DNA of 64,000 bases from Planctomycetota bacterium (GTDB lineage Bacteria; Planctomycetota; Phycisphaerae; Phycisphaerales; UBA1924). Where the stretch lies: NCBI GenBank assembly GCA_018968885.1, contig JAGWZK010000001.1, positions 186,001 through 250,000 of the forward strand. The letters run 5' to 3'. The translations under genes and the position numbers were made by a program. The notes under the pieces were generated by a model. It ran no database searches. It was not told the DNA's origin and saw only the letters and a program-made list of their open reading frames with translations. Positions 2,823-34,476 of this stretch are shown one piece after another; within the stretch, counting starts at the first letter, position 1, and each line of letters opens with the position of its first letter.

Positions 2823-4798
2823 GTATACCCCTCAAGGCCATCGTCATAGAACTTCAGCAAGCTGGCGCCCTCGGCCAGAGTCAGTCGCCCCTGGCGGCAC
2901 GCTGCTTCGATATCCAGACGCATGGCTCGCTTCATATCCGGAATGTCGTACTGCACATATTGCAGAACTTCCTCGACGGTGTCACCCTCGATGACCTCGT
3001 CGATCTCCCACGAACCATTCTCAGAGAAAGAAACGTGCACGGCGTGCGTGTCGCCCAAGAGGTTGTGCAAGTCGCCGAGAATCTCTTGATACGCGCCCAG
3101 CAGGAAGACGCCCAGGTAATACGGCTCGCACCCTTGGCCTTCACCGGGAAGGTCTTTGAGCTCGTGCAGTTCCAGAGTCTTCTTATCGATGCGCTTGTCG
3201 ACAAAGTGATCGATCTTGCCATCCGAATCGCAGGTGATGTCGGCGAGAATGGCCTGACGTGTCGGGTGCTCATTCAGCCGGTGAATCGGGCAGATGGGGA
3301 AGAGCTGATCAATCGCCCAGCTGTCGGGCATGCTCTGAAAGAGCGAGAAATTGCAGAAATAGATATCGCTGAGCAGCTCCGGCAGGGCCTCGAACTCATC
3401 GGGGAGTTCACCCTTCTTGCTGGCACGTTCCAACAGTTTGTGACCAAGAGCCCAGAAGACCTGCTCCGCCGCAGCGCGCATGCGCAGCGACATGTACCCA
3501 AGCGAGAAAAGACTCATCGCCTCATCGCGCGCCTGGGTGGCATCGTGATACGCCTCGACGAGGTTGCGATCTGTGAGATTGCGATAGGCATCCAGCAGAT
3601 CAATCACGGGTTGTGGCGGCTCTGTCTCGGCCTTCAGCTCTCGCTCAATCGCCTCGATATCAGGATTCGATTCAAACTTGCTGCACCCCAGCACGTCCAT
3701 CACCAGCACGCTGGAATACGCCGTCATGGCGCGCCCGGATTCCGAAACGATCATCGGGTGCGGCACCTTGGCATCGTCGCACACGCTCTTGATGCGATAC
3801 ACCACATCGCTGGCGTATTCCGCCACGGTGTAATTGATGCTGCTCGACCACGCGGATTGTGAGCCGTCGTAATCCACGCCCATGCCGCCACCGATGTCCA
3901 GCATCGACAGCCCTGCACCCATCTTGACCAACTCGCAGTAGATGTGCGTCAATTCGTTGACGGCGTTCTTGAAAACGCGGATATCGTACAACTGACTGCC
4001 GACATGGCAGTGCAAGAGATTCAGACAATCCAGCATGTTGTGCTTCTTCAGATACTCCACCGCCTGAAGCACTTCAGAGATAAACAAGCCAAACTTTGAT
4101 CTCGCGCCTGCGCTGGATTCCCAACGCCCCGCGCCGCGGCTGGAGAGCTTCACCCGCAGGCCAATCTTCGGACGCACGCCGTATTGCTTGGCGTGCTTGA
4201 CGATCAGTTCCAACTCAGTCCACTTCTCGACCACGGGAATGATGTTGCGCCCCAGTTTGGTCGCCAGCATCACAGTCTCGATGAACTCATCATCCTTGAA
4301 GCCGTTGCAGATGATGGGCATGCCATTCACGCCCGGACCGCCAGCCACCGCCGACAAGCCCAGCACTGCGATCAACTCCGGCTTGGAGCCGGCCTCAAGG
4401 CCGAAGTTCAGCTTCACCGCCAGCGACGCGATCTCTTCGCAGATGTGACGCTGCTGATTCACCTTGATGGGGTACACGCAGGAATATCCACCGGCGTACT
4501 GCTGCTCGGCCATGGCATCATCAAACGACTTGCGAATCTCGCGCAGACGATGATCAAGTATGTCGTTGAATCGCAGCAGGACGGGCGTGTGCACGCCGCG
4601 CTCGCGCAGGCCGTCGATCACTTCTTTCAGATCGATCTGCCGTGCCGGATCTTTGGTCGGCATGACCGTGACATGCCCGGTGGCATTCACGCTCACATAG
4701 CCCTTGCCCCAATCGGGAATGCCGTAGAGCTGGGCCGAATCAGAACTGGTCCACTGACCGTGGAGAAAACTGGATCGCGAGGAGGAGATGGTGGCCAT
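2807..4798 (-). CDS. speA: Biosynthetic arginine decarboxylase
   Basis: 663 residues, the normal length for the large biosynthetic SpeA. It converts arginine to agmatine and CO2, the first step of the agmatine route to putrescine. The pyridoxal-phosphate lysine is K112 in YSCVYPIKVNQQ. Other family blocks are GLEAGSKPELIAVL, IGLRVKLSSRGAGRWESSAG, LHCHVGSQL and LDIGGGMGVDYDGSQSAWSSSINYT. The end (EEVLQYVQYD... GLEGYTYLEG) is the typical SpeA C-terminus. Transcribed alone on the minus strand; no agmatinase or agmatine deiminase gene is visible in the window. The stop overlaps the convergent ceramidase-like gene by 16 nt, so neither unit has room for its own terminator there. Confidence 0.96.
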   Translation of the reverse strand: MATISSSRSSFLHGQWTSSDSAQLYGIPDWGKGYVSVNATGHVTVMPTKDPARQIDLKEVIDGLRERGVHTPVLLRFNDILDHRLREIRKSFDDAMAEQQYAGGYSCVYPIKVNQQRHICEEIASLAVKLNFGLEAGSKPELIAVLGLSAVAGGPGVNGMPIICNGFKDDEFIETVMLATKLGRNIIPVVEKWTELELIVKHAKQYGVRPKIGLRVKLSSRGAGRWESSAGARSKFGLFISEVLQAVEYLKKHNMLDCLNLLHCHVGSQLYDIRVFKNAVNELTHIYCELVKMGAGLSMLDIGGGMGVDYDGSQSAWSSSINYTVAEYASDVVYRIKSVCDDAKVPHPMIVSESGRAMTAYSSVLVMDVLGCSKFESNPDIEAIERELKAETEPPQPVIDLLDAYRNLTDRNLVEAYHDATQARDEAMSLFSLGYMSLRMRAAAEQVFWALGHKLLERASKKGELPDEFEALPELLSDIYFCNFSLFQSMPDSWAIDQLFPICPIHRLNEHPTRQAILADITCDSDGKIDHFVDKRIDKKTLELHELKDLPGEGQGCEPYYLGVFLLGAYQEILGDLHNLLGDTHAVHVSFSENGSWEIDEVIEGDTVEEVLQYVQYDIPDMKRAMRLDIEAACRQGRLTLAEGASLLKFYDDGLEGYTYLEG

Positions 4799-5164
4799 CG
4801 TGTGTGTGCCGCAGAGTCGCGGCTTGCATTGCGCTCAACGGATCGTCGCTTGGCTTGTGTGGCCAAAGCGAGCTTCCGTGGCTGTGCGAACTGGTCAGGG
4901 CGTCTGACCATGGTGGCGGGTTTGGCTTATTCGCACGTCCATCCCGGCGCCTGGCCATCCATGAAGGCCGCCGAGGTGGTCCTGCTCTGTCCGCCGCCGG
5001 GCGACGCCTTGCCCAACGCGAACCGATGCCGTAACCGCCGGATAGAAGGTTATCGACTTTTTTGCTCCAGACAAGAGCGCGAGGCGCACCTTTGGCCGGA
5101 AAAGTTTCCGCTTGCCCCTCTTCACACTTGCTTAGTGCATCGCCAGTGTGGGGCCAGTGTTCAG
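4799..5164. other. Intergenic region between speA and phhA
   Basis: About 366 bases that must hold the speA promoter (minus strand) and the end of the phhA transcript. I see no conserved coding frame, no clear T-tailed hairpin and no recognisable riboswitch. There are only loose inverted repeats, such as the one around ggccggaaaagtttccg near 5095. Confidence 0.4.
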
Positions 5165-28313: not shown

Positions 28314-28901
28314 TGCCTGCAGTTTTCCTGCAACAGAATGTGTTGACGGTGCGTACCATTTTTTGTATCCTCTCTTTCGCTCCCTTCCATATGGGGGGTG
28401 GGAAGGGGGCAAACGTTTGCGGCGAGGTGGCAACACCGAAGCCCGCGGACGTGGCAGGTGCGACTGGCCATTTGGCTTCATTCGACCTGAATCGTTCTGA
28501 TAGGGTGATGTTGAGTCACCCGGCTTATTCAAGCCCTTTGTCAGAGACGCCTGCCGACAATCCGGAATGAAGATCGCAGTGCTCGCCGGCCACCAGACAA
28601 TCCGCCGGGCGGGTGCGAGAAGGTCTTCAGGGTGTTCGTCGGTCGGCAAAGCCACCCTCGTCCAGCATTCGCGACGCGTCTCGGCGCCTCGGATGTCCTC
28701 ACCCCAAGAAGTGTGATCAAGTTCTGCTTTGGCAGGGCAAGAACACACGAGGACGACTGGTGATTTCGCCCAATCGATTGTCAGGGTTCTCGAACGCGAC
28801 CCTTCCTTAGCGTTCGCACCGGACGGTGGATCCCCGGTTGTGTGGTATCGCAGCGTTCGCTGCACATGCAACCCTCCCTCCAGCCGTCCTCCGGAGTTCA
28901 T
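28314..28901 (+). other. Long leader region upstream of the pilin-like gene
   Basis: About 588 bases without a convincing gene. A good promoter lies at 28343-28371, so most of the stretch should be transcribed as a 5' leader. It contains several small hairpins: a GGTG-GCAA-CACC tetraloop at 28427-28438, a GGGTGA...TCACCC stem at 28503-28521, and a GGCTT...AAGCC stem at 28522-28535. A 65-residue frame at 28613-28810 has no ribosome site and looks accidental. I could not match it to a known riboswitch. Confidence 0.5.
28343..28371 (+). promoter_or_regulatory. Sigma-70-type promoter for the pilin-like transcript
   Basis: TTGACG (28343-28348), a 17-base spacer, and TATCCT (28366-28371). Transcription would start near 28378, more than 500 bases before the pilin ATG. 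Confidence 0.6.
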
Positions 28902-29855
28902 ATGAAGAAGAATCTCAAGGCCTTTACGCTGATCGAGCTGCTGGTGGTTATCGCCATCATCGCCCTCCTCATCGCCATCCTGCTCCCCGCCCTCGGTAAG
29001 GCGCGCGCTGCTGCTCGTCAGCTCAAGTGCTCCACCCAGGTTCGCGGCATCATGCAGGGCAACGTGATCTGGGCTCAGTCGAACGGCGACAAGTACCCCC
29101 TCCCCTCTGACCTCGACAAGAACAACAACACCGTCGCGACGACGACCCCCATCGAGGCGAAGGACAACAACAAGAACATCATGTCCATCCTGATCTACAA
29201 CGGTTACATCCCCACTGAAATGGGTGTGACCCCCGCCGAAGCCAACGGCAACATCAAGGCCTACGAGGGTTACCAGTTCAACAGCCCCCAGCAGGCCGCT
29301 GCTTCTGACAAGTCTCTGGCCCTGTGGGACCCCGGCTTCCGCGCCATCACCAGCGATGCTGGCCAGGGTGTGAGCACGACGATCACCGCTGGTGGCGTTT
29401 CTTACGCCATCAACATCCCCTTTGCTGGTCGCAAGGCCCGCTGGGGTAACACCTTCACCGCCACCGAAGTTGCCGTCGGCAACCGCGGTCCGGTGTACGA
29501 AGCCAACGGCAGCGGCGCAACGCTGACCTGGAAGCTCAAGGCCGATGGCACCGGCACCGGCTCGAACAGCCTCCTGATTCACGGCAGCCGCACGACCTGG
29601 GAAGGCAACCTCGGCTTCAACGACAACCACGTTGACTACGTGACCAAGCCCGATCCCGAGGCCGTCACCTTCACCTTCACCGGCCTGGCTGCTGGTCAGC
29701 GCACCCAGCCCGACAACGTTTTCGTCAACGAGAACGATGGCACTCGCGTGGTCGACACCTCCCTCAACCAGACCAACGCCCTGATCAAGATGATCCCCTC
29801 GGGCGGCGTGACTGGCGCTAGCACCAACCTGACCGTCACCTTCTACCAGGACTAA
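28902..29855 (+). CDS. Type II secretion / type IV pilin-like prepilin
   Basis: 317 residues from the ATG at 28902, with GGAG (28892-28895) in place as ribosome site. The leader MKKNLKAF is followed by the prepilin cleavage and methylation motif [16 protein letters not shown], with the Glu at mature position 5. The rest is a large, mostly beta domain ending [10 protein letters not shown]. Planctomycetes use many such proteins as pseudopilins or surface filaments. Base composition is balanced and codons look optimised (aac, aag, ggc), unlike the skewed genes around it, which suggests high expression. A strong promoter with a long leader precedes it and an intrinsic terminator follows. Confidence 0.85.
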
Positions 29856-29886: not shown

Positions 29887-29923
29887 CCAACCCCCTGGCC
29901 ATTGGCTGGGGGGTTGTGTTTTT
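29887..29923 (+). terminator. Intrinsic terminator of the pilin-like gene
   Basis: Arm AACCCCCTGGCC (29889-29900) pairs with GGCTGGGGGGTT (29904-29915), with a one-base mismatch or bulge, followed by GTGTTTTT. It ends the single-gene transcript. Confidence 0.8.
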
Positions 29924-29946: not shown

Positions 29947-30002
29947 TGGGATGCGGAAAGGCAGAGAGGTAAGAGGGGGATCAAGTGGTGCGGGAAGTAC
30001 CC

Positions 30003-30455
30003 GCACCGCTGGCGCGGTGCACAACCAAGTGCGTTGATCTTGTACGTGGGTGTGGCTGCGCCACTACCCCCGTCTATTCACCGATGCCGCTACGCGGCGT
30101 CAAATCCCCTCACGGAGGTACCCAACCTGACTATTCACCATTGCAGGTACGCGGCGGAAGCATGTATGACATCGCGTAGCGATGGTGGTGAATAGCCGTG
30201 GGCTGTCGCGCAGCGACGCCCACGGAGCACGTCCTCCTTTCGAGCTGTGCACCACGCAGTGGTGCAGTTGGCCCACCAGCACCGCTGGCGCGGTGCCGTG
30301 TTGATGGGTTGGGCGAGTTCCGGGGGTGGGGCTACGCCCCAACCCCCGTCTATTCACCATTGCCGCTACGCGGCAGAAGTTGCCGCAGATTGAGTTCGTG
30401 GGGTTGAGATGTTGCGGCAACCCACGTTCATCGACGGTTGCCGCTGCGCGACAGA
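30003..30455. repeat. Cluster of REP-like palindromes upstream of the IS200-like transposase
   Basis: A dense set of short stems with TAC, GTA, TGC, GCA or TGGC loops. GCACCGC-TGGC-GCGGTGC occurs twice, identically (30003-30020 and 30279-30296). The word CTATTCACC followed by a small stem occurs at 30074-30098 (GCCGC-TAC-GCGGC), 30131-30154 and 30350-30374 on the plus strand, and inverted at 30170-30195 (CATCGC-GTA-GCGATG). A longer hairpin precedes CTATTCACC in three of the four copies (for example 30196-30225). A further stem is TGCACCAC-GCA-GTGGTGCA at 30248-30266. A degenerate copy may lie at 30428-30455. No gene is supported in this roughly 450-base stretch. Confidence 0.8.
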
Positions 30456-30477
30456 TGCGTGTGGTACATTCATCGTC

Positions 30478-30930
30478 ATGGCCAACACGTTGACGAGCAT
30501 TCTGATTCACATCACATTTTCGACGAAGAATCGTGAGCCGATGATTGCAGCCGACATTCGCGACGAGTTGTTTCAATACATGGGTGGCGTGTGCCGCGAG
30601 ATGAAATGCGTGCTGGTGCATGCGGGCGGGGTGAGTGATCACGTTCATCTCCTGATTTCACTGGACAAGACTGTGTGTGTTTCGGATCTGATGATGCATG
30701 TGAAGCGGGCGAGTTCGGGGTGGATGAAGAACAGTCGGCCGGGGCAGCACCTGTTTGCGTGGCAGGATGGGTATTTCGCGTTTTCAGTTGGACATGATGA
30801 TGTGGAGCGAGTGCGGGCGTATTTTGACGGGCAAGAAGAGCATCATGCGAGGGTTGATTTCAAGACAGAGATGGAAACGTTTTTGAAGAAGTATGGTGTG
30901 GCGTTTGATCCGAAGTATGTTTGGAACTGA
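30478..30930 (+). CDS. IS200-like / REP-associated tyrosine transposase (Y1, HUH)
   Basis: 150 residues. The HUH metal motif is H55-V-H57 in GVSDHVHLLIS. The likely nucleophile is Tyr115 in RVRAYFDGQEEHH. ILIHITFSTKNREPMI at the N-terminus and FAWQDGYFAFSV plus FLKKYGVAFDPKYVWN at the C-terminus match the small IS200/REP-type transposase family, which cleaves and joins single-stranded DNA at hairpins. No TnpB or second ORF is present, and only the upstream side carries palindromes. This fits a RAYT with its REP substrates better than a complete IS. The gene is intact. It lies 21 nt from the end of the convergent phage-like operon. Confidence 0.88.
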   Translation: MANTLTSILIHITFSTKNREPMIAADIRDELFQYMGGVCREMKCVLVHAGGVSDHVHLLISLDKTVCVSDLMMHVKRASSGWMKNSRPGQHLFAWQDGYFAFSVGHDDVERVRAYFDGQEEHHARVDFKTEMETFLKKYGVAFDPKYVWN

Positions 30931-30951: not shown

Positions 30952-31221
30952 TCAGCGTGTGGTGCGGGGGCGGCGGCGTGACTGGAGTCGGGGTTGGAGG
31001 CGATTGAGGAGGATGCGTTGGGTGGATTCGAGGGCGGTGAGGGCGCGGGTGCAGTTTTGAGTGAGGGTGGCGAGGGTGTCGAAGCCGAGGCGTTCGGTGA
31101 TGAGTTTGTTGTGGGCGTCGGCGAGTTGTTTGTCGCGTGTGAGTGCCGCGCGTCGCTCGAGAAGCCAGCAGCAGGCGATGAGGCCGGCTGCGCCGAAGTT
31201 GGTGAGGAGGGTGGGGTCCAT
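30952..31221 (-). CDS. Small membrane-anchored phage-like protein (possible holin or Rz-like role)
   Basis: 89 residues. One N-terminal hydrophobic segment (LLTNFGAAGLIACCWLLE) is followed by an amphipathic, probably coiled region (RDKQLADAHNKLITERLGFDTLATLTQNCTRALTALESTQ) and a basic tail. This resembles small phage membrane proteins placed after tail genes, but the function is inferred only from layout. GGAG lies about 5 nt before the ATG. It is the last gene of the minus-strand capsid operon. The opposite strand and alternate frames give low-complexity shadows. Confidence 0.6.
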   Translation of the reverse strand: MDPTLLTNFGAAGLIACCWLLERRAALTRDKQLADAHNKLITERLGFDTLATLTQNCTRALTALESTQRILLNRLQPRLQSRRRPRTTR

Positions 31222-31283
31222 GGGGGCTCCGGAGAATCGAGGTGTCGAGCGGAGGAGAGCAGGAGAGCAACTCGCTGCGCGGA

Positions 31284-31658
31284 TCAGGTGGGGAGGAGTT
31301 TGCGGAAGGTGGCGGAGTAGGTGATGGAGCGGGTGCGGGCGCGATCGGTGGGGGCGAGTTCTTTGAAAGCGACGAAGTGGATGTCGGACCAGGTGTGGCC
31401 GTGGTCGTCGATGAGATCGGCGGCGGTGGGAGGGTGAGTGAGGAGCGCGGTGATGTTGTTGCGCAGCGTCCAGAGAGCAGATTCGGTGGAGGCGACGAGG
31501 CGGCCGGTGACGGTGATGACAAGCTCTTTGAGGCCGATGGGGAGAGAGGCGGGGTCGAGCGCGCCCTGGGAGATGAGTGGGATGAGGGTTTGTCCTTGAT
31601 CGCCGATGGTGAAGCGATGAGGCCCGACGAAGATGGAGAGGCCGTTGAAGGTGGACAT
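31284..31658 (-). CDS. Phage-like structural protein, probably tail-associated
   Basis: 124 residues, MSTFNGLSIFVGPHRFTIG... to ...ITYSATFRKLLPT, mostly predicted beta-strand with no signal or membrane segment. I recognise no family by motif. Size, position behind the capsid and connector-like genes, and coupling to the neighbour (9 nt after its stop) suggest a head-completion or tail protein. GAGGTG lies 6 nt upstream of the ATG. Confidence 0.55.
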   Translation of the reverse strand: MSTFNGLSIFVGPHRFTIGDQGQTLIPLISQGALDPASLPIGLKELVITVTGRLVASTESALWTLRNNITALLTHPPTAADLIDDHGHTWSDIHFVAFKELAPTDRARTRSITYSATFRKLLPT

Positions 31659-31667
31659 GACAGCACC

Positions 31668-32063
31668 TCAGAGGATGGTGATGGGGTCGGTGGCGCCATT
31701 GGTTGAGATGGCGATGAGGGAGATGGTGCGGGTGGCGCCTTTGGGATTGAGGGAATGGGTGCAGGAGCGGACGACGGTGGAGGCCTGGAGGGTGAGAGAG
31801 CCACTGTCGGAGTCGTTGGGTTTGGCGTGGATAGTGAGGGTGGCGGAGGAAGAGGGAAGGGGCGCGGCGAAGTCGGATGAGGTGAGATACTGAAGGATGG
31901 TGATGAGAACTTTCTGCTCGGGGATATCGGCGAAGGTGGGGTGTGGGCCTGCATCGGAGAAGTCGATGGCTTCGCGCGACGCGGTGCGATCGATGGAGAT
32001 GGAGGAGACGCTAGAGAGGAGGAGAGAACCGAAGGTGACGCGAGTGGGGGATGAGAGGAACAT
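31668..32063 (-). CDS. Phage-like structural protein, probably tail-associated
   Basis: 131 residues from the ATG at 32063 (MFLSSPTRVTFGSLLLSSVSSISIDR). GGAG 8 nt upstream fixes this start over the longer frame to 32105. The sequence is beta-rich (ATLTIHAKPNDSDSGSLTLQASTVVRSC) and ends TISLIAISTNGATDPITIL. Function unknown; placement suggests a tail or neck protein. It is followed 9 nt later by the next structural gene and preceded by a roughly 230-nt gap filled with repeats. Confidence 0.55.
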   Translation of the reverse strand: MFLSSPTRVTFGSLLLSSVSSISIDRTASREAIDFSDAGPHPTFADIPEQKVLITILQYLTSSDFAAPLPSSSATLTIHAKPNDSDSGSLTLQASTVVRSCTHSLNPKGATRTISLIAISTNGATDPITIL

Positions 32064-32100
32064 GGCAAAATCTCCAGAAGGGAGGCATAAAACCGAAGAG

Positions 32101-32270
32101 TTCAACGCAGAGGCACAGAGACGCAGAGGTTGATCGGAGGAAGAAAGAGGAAGTGACGGAGTGGCAGAGTGAAGAGATGAGAATTGCAGATTTGAAATTC
32201 AGATTTGAAAAGAATCAGAAGCAGCAGAAGAAAAGCGTGAGAGACACACTGACCCCAAAGCGGGTCAGTG
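32101..32270. repeat. Gap with dispersed repeats A and C and a perfect hairpin
   Basis: 32101-32150 carries family A (TTCAACGCAGAGGCACAGAG... then CGGAGGAAGA), also found at 32969-33019. 32183-32212 carries family C (GCAGATTTGAAATTCAGATT), also found at 36969-37000. 32247-32255 and 32262-32270 form a perfect nine-pair stem CACTGACCC/GGGTCAGTG. The gap lies inside the phage-like operon. Confidence 0.65.
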
Positions 32271-32297
32271 GCACGGAGAAGGGCATTGGGAAGGGAG

Positions 32298-32945
32298 TCA
32301 GGCGCGAGTGAGGTGGAATTGGGAGGGGGAGCGGGTGGTATCGGGGAGGCCATCGGAGTTGGTATCGAGTTGGGCGGAGATGAAGCGTGCCGCGCGTTCG
32401 AAGAGGAGCATGTAGACCGTTGCAGCGCGGGCGATGGAAGCGGAGGAGGGGAGGGTGAGAGAGGCGGCATCGGCGAGATGACGGAGAGTGAGGAGAGCGA
32501 TGGGGCGGATGAGTGTGCGGGGATTGGTGATGTGGAGTTCGGTGAGGGTGCCGCTGGGAGGGGATGTGGAGGAGGGAGTGAGGCCGAGGGATGAGAGGAT
32601 TTCGGATTCGGCGGCGGCGAGCTGGGGGGCGAAGGTGTGGATGGAGTAGGGGCGATCGGTGAGTGTGCCGATGGGGAGAGGAGAGCCGCTGGGTTCGGCA
32701 CGGAGGCGGGAGATGGTGAGGGTGTTGGCGGAGGTGCGGGCGATGATCTCGTAGGAGATGTCGTCGATGGTGATAATGTGGCCGGGAGAGATGTTGGCGG
32801 CGGTGAAGGTGGAGTCTTGAGTTGATGCGGTGAGCGCGGTGGCACTGACGGAGCAGACGCCGGTGGAGAGGCGCTGGCCGAGCCAGGAGACGGAGCGGAG
32901 GAGGGAGGGATCGATGACGAGGAGGTCGCGGTCGGAGGTGAGCAT
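32298..32945 (-). CDS. Phage-like head-tail connector candidate
   Basis: 215 residues. The start (MLTSDRDLLVIDPSLLRSVSWLGQRLSTG) is followed by a beta domain (ITIDDISYEIIARTSANTLTISRLR) and a helical segment with LRHLADAASL and YMLLFERAARFISAQLDTNSDGLPD. It lies directly downstream of the capsid gene, where head-completion or connector proteins usually sit. The assignment is from position; I see no decisive motif. A run AAAGGAACTCCC before the ATG supports the start. Confidence 0.55.
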   Translation of the reverse strand: MLTSDRDLLVIDPSLLRSVSWLGQRLSTGVCSVSATALTASTQDSTFTAANISPGHIITIDDISYEIIARTSANTLTISRLRAEPSGSPLPIGTLTDRPYSIHTFAPQLAAAESEILSSLGLTPSSTSPPSGTLTELHITNPRTLIRPIALLTLRHLADAASLTLPSSASIARAATVYMLLFERAARFISAQLDTNSDGLPDTTRSPSQFHLTRA

Positions 32946-33247: not shown

Positions 33248-34420
33248 TCAGGTGATGCTGAGGCCGCGGATCATGCCGTGGGCGAGTTCGTTGCGGAACT
33301 CGAGGGTGTATTCGCCCAGGAGTTGTCCACTGACGGAATCGCCGGTGGTGGCGAGGGGTTTGTAGTGGAAGGAGCGATTGGTGAGGGGGAGGACGTTGAT
33401 GCGTGAGGAATCGAGGAGGAGGAGGGAATCAGCGGGCATCCAGCGTGAGACGACGACGCGGCAGACACCGAAATCGGATTCGTAGACGCTGACCATTTCA
33501 CCGAGGCGTGCATCGGCGGGGGAGTAGGCGCGTGCGGTGCTGGCGATGAACTGGTTGATGCGGCGCTTTTGGAAGCCACCGACGACGATGGTGTCGACGG
33601 AGCCATTGGATTGCTCCCAGATATTGCGGAGGGCGGTGTTGACGAGGGTTTCGTTGAGGTCGGTGCCGCTGCCGCCACCGGAGGGGAAGCCGCCGGAGCC
33701 GGGAGTGAACTTGTTGGTGGTGATGTATTTGACGAGGCCATCCATGGTGCGGCGGACGGAGGAAGTGCCCTGGGGGTTGGTGCTGGCGGCGACGCCATTG
33801 ATGATGCAGTTTTCGAGATCGCGAAGGAGTTCGCGGGCGCGTTCGGACTTTTGGTAGTCGAGCTCATCGGCGATACCGATTTTGCGTGCGGCCTGCATGG
33901 AGCCACTGACATCGACGGTTGCGGAGAAGATCTGGGTGTAGTTCTGTCGACGCTGACGAGTGGTGGCGCGGGCGGCGGAGGCGGGGGCGCCTTCGAGGGC
34001 GGCGTTGCCGATGATGTGGAGACGGCGGCCGTTGGTGAGGGTGAAGGCGGGGGATGAGCCGTAACGACGGATGACGGTGATGATGCTGGCGTTGATGGCG
34101 GTGACGAGGAGGACTTCGCTCGAGGTATCGGGGCGAACCAGATCACCAACCTGGAAGCGGGAGATATTGGCGACGGTGATGTCGGTGCAATCCTGACCGT
34201 TGGGGGAGAAGGTGGTCTGATTGACGGAATCGAAATTGGGGAGGAGGGTGTCTTCGATCCACTCGTGGACAGTGGATTGCGCGACGCGCTGAGGATCGCC
34301 GAGACGATCGAGGAGAGGAGTTTCATAGGGAGAGACGATGGAGATGATGTCGGAGATGTCTTCGGCGAGTTCGGGGAGAGTGGAGCCGGCATCGAAGGTG
34401 GATTTTCCGGTGTAAGGCAT
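33248..34420 (-). CDS. Major capsid protein, SU10-like (DUF5309) type
   Basis: About 390 residues from the ATG at 34420 (MPYTGKSTFDAG), with AAAGGA upstream; the longer frame runs into repeat B and is unlikely. The N-terminal block SDIISIVSPYETPLLDRLGD, then STVHEWIEDTLLPN, QIFSATVDVSGSMQAARKIGIADELDYQKSERARELLRDLENCIING, and the late blocks VVVSRWMPADSLLLLDSSRINVLPL and LLGEYTLEFRNELAHG are those of SU10-type capsid proteins with the HK97 fold. The frame is intact. It should form the shell of a virus-like particle together with the portal and scaffold-like gene upstream. Confidence 0.82.
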   Translation of the reverse strand: MPYTGKSTFDAGSTLPELAEDISDIISIVSPYETPLLDRLGDPQRVAQSTVHEWIEDTLLPNFDSVNQTTFSPNGQDCTDITVANISRFQVGDLVRPDTSSEVLLVTAINASIITVIRRYGSSPAFTLTNGRRLHIIGNAALEGAPASAARATTRQRRQNYTQIFSATVDVSGSMQAARKIGIADELDYQKSERARELLRDLENCIINGVAASTNPQGTSSVRRTMDGLVKYITTNKFTPGSGGFPSGGGSGTDLNETLVNTALRNIWEQSNGSVDTIVVGGFQKRRINQFIASTARAYSPADARLGEMVSVYESDFGVCRVVVSRWMPADSLLLLDSSRINVLPLTNRSFHYKPLATTGDSVSGQLLGEYTLEFRNELAHGMIRGLSIT

Positions 34421-34438
34421 GGGGAGTCCTTTCAAGAG

Positions 34439-34476
34439 AGGCACTAGGCACTTGGCACTAGGCACTAGGCACTAGG
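34439..34476. repeat. Tandem GGCACTAGGCAC repeat (family B) before the capsid gene
   Basis: Five near-identical 7-8 base units of ggcacta/ggcactt type lie directly upstream of the capsid ribosome site. Related arrays occur at 36921-36950, inside a glycosyltransferase gene, and at 29930-29946. Confidence 0.7.

Follow-up and report, generated by a model that had tools for sequence, protein, structure and literature searches.

Short palindromes crowded against the gene of a single-strand transposase may be the ends of an insertion sequence, sites that it inserts into, RNA-level elements that lie there by chance, or REPs that belong to the transposase itself. We asked which of these applies to a locus in Planctomycetota bacterium GCA_018968885.1 (3.39 Mb in 52 contigs, 92% complete), and to which class its transposase belongs. 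The window, by which we mean the whole stretch of DNA analysed, is 64 kb of contig JAGWZK010000001.1 (186,001-250,000) and is 78% coding.

The locus

The transposase gene, tnpA, is an intact ORF whose product matches Pfam Y1_Tnp at E=5e-25, in agreement with the initial annotation. Genome search found the gene once, and no tnpB adjoins it within the window. Directly upstream, where about ten stems with TAC, TGC or TGGC loops had been reported, there are 12 perfect stems (at least 5 bp, loops of 3-5) at 29987-30386, with TAC/GTA, TGC/GCA and TGGC loops plus a few others. The bin 30001-30500 is the densest of the 128 500-base bins of the window (11 stems, against a mean of 1.84), and the cluster is found only upstream of tnpA.

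The word CTATTCACC, described as occurring three times direct and once inverted, does so at 30074+, 30131+, 30350+ and 30187-. These are its only copies in the 64 kb and all lie in the cluster, against 0.18 expected; none of 100 shuffles reached four. A larger hairpin had been said to come before the word; three of the four copies have one on their foot side, and the 30131 copy is a remnant. The word is the complement of a spacer plus an ATAG foot, so the foot of the window units is of the canonical GTAG type and is read on the strand opposite to the word. The planctomycete REPs, expected to differ in sequence, are thus not wholly different in kind. The unit has three hairpins (here H3, H2 and H1), an anatomy beyond the initial annotation, and flanks the gene on both sides in most relatives.

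The window holds one pair of units with feet outward, one further unit and two decayed units. R1 in the list is a covariance model built from 30 units.

30478-30930, +: tnpA, intact ORF of 150 aa, Y1 (HUH) transposase with motifs DHVH, WQ and YFDGQEEHH
30170-30375, both strands: REPIN-like pair of a + unit and a - unit, feet outward (R1 matches at 30168-30225, +, and 30320-30377, -)
30170-30184, +: H3 of the pair's + unit, GTA loop (stem scan, R1)
30192-30195, +: ATAG foot of the pair's + unit; GGTGAATAG is the inverted CTATTCACC
30196-30225, +: H2 of the pair's + unit, bulged, GCA loop
30248-30266, +: H1 of the pair's + unit, GCA loop (stem scan)
30279-30296, -: H1 of the pair's - unit, TGGC (GCCA) loop (stem scan)
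30321-30348, -: H2 of the pair's - unit, TAC (GTA) loop (stem scan, R1)
30350-30358, -: CTATTCACC of the pair's - unit, complement of spacer and ATAG foot
30361-30375, -: H3 of the pair's - unit, TAC (GTA) loop (stem scan)
30003-30101, -: further unit (R1 match at 30044-30101, -, E=1.8e-9), with H1 at 30003-30020, H2 at 30044-30073, CTATTCACC at 30074-30082 and H3 at 30086-30098
30126-30160, -: decayed unit, CTATTCACC at 30131-30139 and a broken H3 (repeat family D2; without R1 match)
30399-30452, -: decayed unit, 61% like the first (family D1; without R1 match)

Our home-made codon model, for which this genome served as training set, does not call tnpA (30478-30930) as a gene, so the codon usage of tnpA is atypical. 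Close 3′ of tnpA is the gene of an SU10-type major capsid protein (33248-34465, -; PF17236 at E=2e-89; PHROG major head protein), accompanied by small ORFs at 30952-32945 (-). Next to the tnpA element there is a prophage or phage-derived cluster, which may be the reason why the window gene lacks a downstream unit. On the other side, a prepilin-like gene (28842-29855; Pfam N_methyl) is followed by an inverted repeat and then a T-rich stretch at 29888-29916, probably its terminator and outside the REP cluster.

Anatomy of the unit

The plan of the unit was drawn by comparing the flanks of relatives. Read on the foot strand it is H3 (about 6 bp, GNA triloop), 6-8 nt, the foot (A/G)TAG, a bulged H2 (8-bp outer stem, one unpaired base, 5-bp inner stem, GNA loop; longer in many relatives) and, after a gap of about 21 or 38 nt, H1, whose loop is mostly GNA. 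With loci turned to the gene strand, this gap follows no clean left/right rule.

Stems of at least 7 bp that lie no more than 400 bp from tnpA at 34 Phycisphaerae loci have 249 feet, of which 41 are RTAG, against 0.15 in shuffled flanks; 30 of the 41 face outward and 11 inward. At 16 tnpA loci of other phyla RTAG accounts for 10 of 98 feet (0.10 in shuffles). The upstream and downstream labels were swapped at 13 minus-strand loci, which leaves outward and inward counts unaffected. H3 lies 6-8 nt from the foot in 72 of 89 RTAG-plus-stem units, and its loop on the foot strand is GNA in 61 of these 72 and TNC in none, so the unit is strand-specific. In DNA, cGNAg loops have an unusually high stability. 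Both helices are supported by paired changes in alignment A1 (30 of the 32 short units, leaving out L040 and one of two like copies of L045), with pair counts that are biased because the rows were chosen on their stems. Mini-hairpins number 138 at 32 Phycisphaerae tnpA loci (17 in shuffles); at class-2 RAYT loci, leaving out L104, L117 and L134, they number 48 (15.2 in shuffles) and stand on both sides in 9 of 37.

Association with one transposase clade

R1 gave 125 matches in 50 loci of the tnpA clade. An outward-foot unit lies within 400 bp of the gene at 39 of the 50 and on both sides at 26; among the 36 loci outside R1 training the counts are 25 and 16. The remaining 11 loci have no outward unit. 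Units within 200 bp of tnpA face outward 63 times and inward 15 times. The 50 loci are part of the tnpA matches found (one search yielded loci for 30 listed places); L001-L003, L035, L037-L039 and L042 were left out as places already covered, and L059 and L060 as short partial matches.

The units might instead belong to the genome's class-2 RAYT, with an IS200-like element merely inserting into them, as ISPpu9 inserts into Pseudomonas REPs (in the part of PMC8450116 available to us). The genome does have such a gene, at C41:27342-27794 (L099; 199 aa, EHFHV, YIHNNP), the only one above cut-off with the NCBIfam REP-associated model (86.7 bits), and class 2 is common, being present in 120 of 200 genomes. 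Yet no R1 unit lies near the C41 gene, and a scan of 41 class-2 loci from the same order, this one among them, gave no R1 match. Among 19 further class-2 loci one had R1 matches, four of them, and this locus, L210, had been chosen because a match was seen beside its class-2 gene. Its units lie at least 246 bp after that gene, between it and a gene that we take by eye to be sdhB-like. The L210 gene has different palindromes of its own, GGACCTTC...AAGGTCC at 1417-1446 and 2240-2270, seemingly the REP family of that class-2 RAYT.

Co-occurrence points the same way. Of the 200 genomes, 60 have tnpA, and 54 of these have units; among the 140 without tnpA, 21 do (at a tnpA threshold of E<=1e-20, 21 genomes have units without tnpA and six tnpA without units). 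Within the same family, class-2-positive genomes have units in 36 of 38 with tnpA and 12 of 37 without; for class-2-negative genomes the figures are 12 of 14 and 6 of 31. With tnpA held fixed, class 2 thus has no clear association with units. The p values of these comparisons overstate, because the genomes are related, and unit counts per genome in the multi-genome R1 scans are lower bounds, limited by how many candidates were scored. A phylum-wide draw found units in 30 of 392 genomes at E<=1e-5. On the 41-locus null and the co-occurrence we reject the class-2 RAYT as owner of the units, with L210 as one coincidence; insertion into class-2 REPs also sits badly with the fixed outward orientation and range of the units that flank tnpA, and we regard it as improbable. 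The units have a common structure, are dispersed and are tied specifically to the tnpA clade.

Class of the transposase

The initial annotation had likened the locus to the RAYTs (class 2) of Gammaproteobacteria; the transposase does not group with these. A tree of 89 proteins, made by a quick method and with long branches flagged, puts class 2 on one side (support 100) and class 1 on the other (100); L030, L055, L056 and L058 and the class-2 loci L104, L117 and L134 were left out, and the 30 Bacteroidales relatives described below also lie outside this tree. Subclass 1.1 (IS608, ISDra2, Sulfolobus solfataricus and two loci of the order) has its own branch (99), and the window protein falls in a clade of seven (99) whose members have the same short kind of unit. 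The HUH, Gln and Tyr motifs are kept: among 50 relatives, Y---Q--HH is found in 44, [DN]H[VI]H in 48 and WQ in 44. The window protein scores above cut-off with the NCBIfam IS200 model and reaches 25.7 bits with the REP-associated model, below its cut-off of 80. It has all three motifs of subclass 1.2: DH[IV]H, WQ and Y---Q--HH. Judged by sequence, the transposase is class 1, on the IS200 side, with motifs that match subclass 1.2.

Three other identities were rejected. A class-2 RAYT is ruled out by YFDGQEEHH (not Y---NP), tree position and the NCBIfam REP score; subclass 1.1 by WQ (not W[TS]), its separate branch and the single gene copy; and class 3 TnpAY1 by DHVH, WQ, Y---Q--HH and the RTAG foot. 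In the part of PMC6006769 available to us, class 3 (Planctomycetes, Acidobacteria) is considered to stand between IS200 and REPtron, and is like our locus in its atypical flanking hairpins with copies elsewhere in the genome; its NHVH, W[TA], YV[VI][AENY]EQ and CnGA foot fit nothing here.

Likeness to subclass 1.2 as given in the same portion of PMC6006769 extends to length (about 150 aa), a conserved tail, low copy number and divergent copies: the window gene is present once, and relatives have one to seven matches per positive genome, most far below 70% identity as measured to the query, not copy against copy. That text places the subclass mostly in Cyanobacteria and Bacteroidetes and describes it as without REP and generally without terminal structures. 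In contrast, our hosts are Planctomycetota and Verrucomicrobiota, and the 39 of 50 loci with units contradict the described lack of REPs and terminal structures, as do the 138 mini-hairpins at Phycisphaerae loci.

An ordinary IS200 insertion sequence with hairpin ends, its old copies having left the scattered units as dead ends, would account for the IS200 model score and for the gene lying between two inverted units at 26 of 50 loci, which therefore looks like an element with ends; the locus also shares with IS200/IS605 (subclass 1.1: IS608, ISDra2) the class-1 fold family, the HUH/Tyr/Gln motifs and hairpins at both flanks. The ends differ: in IS608 they are two different hairpins, and here they form an inverted repeat with a single kind of foot. 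The rest of the evidence is also against it. One gene faces about 29 distant units in its own genome, with solo units scattered and no adjoining tnpB in the window; single units have common edges, one at H3 and one at H2, and gene-free pairs recur. Gene copies within a relative are few and divergent, whereas the mean identity of copies in subclass 1.1 is 99.4% in the accessible part of PMC6006769. Ordinary IS200 was found in 2 of 200 genomes at E<=1e-25. We give this explanation little credence.

Dispersal and gene-free pairs

The initial annotation had tied the palindromes to the transposase as REP-like and proposed a genome search with its word, counting intergenic against coding copies. A 22-base version of the word, with up to two mismatches, found only the three local direct copies; it was too narrow, since CTATTCACC shows spacer and foot in a local variant form. 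R1 found 32 matches in the genome at E<=0.011 (26 at E<=1.8e-4), three at tnpA and 29 elsewhere. By the home-made codon model 27 of the 30 fetched copies, the three at tnpA included, are intergenic, and the other three fall within low-scoring ORFs, which bears out the REP-like character. Stems confined to this cluster beside an IS200 present in several complete copies, the outcome that would speak against REPs, are not what the genome holds: the stems are dispersed and the transposase is single-copy. GTAG-footed palindromes that both adjoin the gene and are dispersed in intergenic DNA are a trait of the RAYT type, and one that this locus shares.

Copies L063, L064, L066 and L068 are 95-98% identical over about 59 nt from the start of H3 to the end of H2, except that the pair L063-L068 aligned over 118 nt at 84%. 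H3-foot-H2 is therefore the copied unit. Its 5′ edge, two pyrimidines and a C, starts 26 of 27 dispersed copies. The units at L071, L073, L083, L086 and L087 are no more than about 200 bases away from the end of a contig; the assembly therefore probably breaks there, and the copy count is probably low. A second subfamily of units in the genome (L069, L071, L073, L075, L076, L064, L090) has a conserved box, ACACGGTCTCCCGATGCAC, at the place of H1, and no transposase was seen for it. A DNA search with the whole cluster returned, besides the cluster itself, two weak matches.

The neighbours are convergent for 9 of the 15 intergenic copies with both neighbours called, a setting that would also suit terminators or mRNA 3′ ends near tnpA by chance. 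Such an RNA-level reading is highly improbable: an Rfam search of the units gave no match, the unit contains no T tract, and the fixed RTAG foot, the pairing of inverted units and the link with a single transposase clade would go unexplained.

In three relatives we fetched 18 gene-free pairs with feet outward (eight, six and four; two further stretches of relative G029 are left out of this set). Their common order is H3-foot-H2-H1 ... H1-H2-foot-H3; the hairpins are conserved or vary in concert (a few are altered, and one pair is cut by a contig end), and the linkers and flanks are unrelated. The window pair has the same plan. These pairs follow the plan of a REPIN: in all 18 and in the window pair the REPs are inverted, the feet point outward and no gene lies between, and they occur at several places.

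Relatives in Bacteroidales

Y---Q--HH is present in all 30 Bacteroidales relatives. RTAG feet occur at 6 of the 30 loci and are not the commonest foot, so we claim no GTAG rule for this order; the foot seems to differ between clades. Mini-hairpins number 85 in the 27 of 30 loci used (14.6 in shuffles) and stand on both sides at 16 of the 27, several loci showing the H3-H2-H1 order. Matching hairpins are seen on both flanks at L182 (-101 and +61 of tnpA), L198 (-115 and +95), L177 and L178, with GTAG, TCAG or other feet. In Porphyromonas uenonis (L055) an H1-H2-CTAC-H3 arrangement (3440-3570) lies downstream of a subclass 1.2-type tnpA, followed at 3588-3830 by GTAGGGACG repeats in inverted pairs and at 4142-4923 by 10 tandem 63-nt coding repeats. 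A plasmid search for Bacteroidetes relatives returned two records.

Discussion

The evidence for the anatomy of the units and for their association with tnpA is strong. The explanation that we favour, and hold to be quite probable, is that the locus is a REPtron-like single-strand transposition system, in which a class-1 TnpA of the 1.2 type has a REP family of its own. Non-autonomous derivatives of this TnpA system are the best reading of the REPIN-like pairs. Like REPtrons with a class-2 TnpAREP/RAYT, the locus has a Y1 gene of low copy number beside palindromes with a GTAG-type foot and a bulged stem, dispersed intergenic copies and inverted pairs with feet outward. Unlike them, it has a class-1 enzyme off the class-2 branch (Y---Q--HH, not Y---NP), an extra H3 before the foot, an H1 after it, and a foot that is often ATAG. 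GTAG repeats are described in Rhodopirellula baltica and Opitutus terrae in the part of PMC3733652 available to us; they too are GTAG-footed palindromes of the PVC superphylum, and as described there have no tie to a class-1 transposase and no H3 or H1 hairpins.

According to the available part of PMC8266576, the HUH/Tyr enzymes of IS608, ISDra2 and Escherichia coli TnpAREP cleave single strands, and a guide tetranucleotide that lies 5′ of a hairpin helps to select the site; contacts to GTAG separate TnpAREP from the single-strand transposases. By position, RTAG would be the guide tetranucleotide here and H2 the guided hairpin. We infer binding by TnpA, guide function, cleavage, choice of strand and mobility of the units as follows. 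When the foot strand is single-stranded, for example as lagging-strand template, H3, H2 and H1 would fold as GNA-capped DNA hairpins; the strand-specific GNA triloops suggest which strand is the substrate. TnpA would bind the bulged H2 with (A/G)TAG as guide, and its HUH/Tyr site would cut near the edge of the unit and rejoin the strand at another place, which would let inverted pairs and single H3-foot-H2 units spread in trans. WQ, which in Table 1 of PMC6006769, as far as accessible, marks 1.2 and most GTAG-linked class-2 subclasses and is absent from 1.1, may, judging by its position among the motifs, contribute to recognising GTAG. The role of H3 and H1 may be to hold the strand in its folded form or to offer a binding site for a second subunit.

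In relatives the gene usually lies inside an outward-foot pair, in the manner of an IS; the window copy has lost its downstream unit or never had one. Its one pair lies upstream, and phage-like genes follow it downstream; it therefore cannot move as a two-flank element, and its TnpA could still act in trans.

The route from IS200 elements to REPtrons is the question that these units touch. Within class 1, the accessible portion of PMC6006769 assigns IS ends to subclass 1.1 and nothing to subclass 1.2; the class-1 TnpA here has GTAG-type units; a search of titles and the beginnings of abstracts, with most subscription journals outside its scope, found no REPs tied to subclass 1.2. We are evenly divided on a wider proposal: that subclass 1.2 is a second REP-making lineage and a living intermediate between IS200 and REPtron, with GTAG-type feet and H3-foot-H2-H1 GNA-capped ends, extending over Planctomycetota and Verrucomicrobiota and also, with different feet, over Bacteroidales. 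If true, it would stand between IS200, whose two ends are hairpins, and REPtrons, in which the gene is domesticated and the REPs are dispersed. Units on both flanks of the gene, solo units and gene-free pairs all occur in one bacterial family, which makes the transition from IS200 to REPtron directly testable there.
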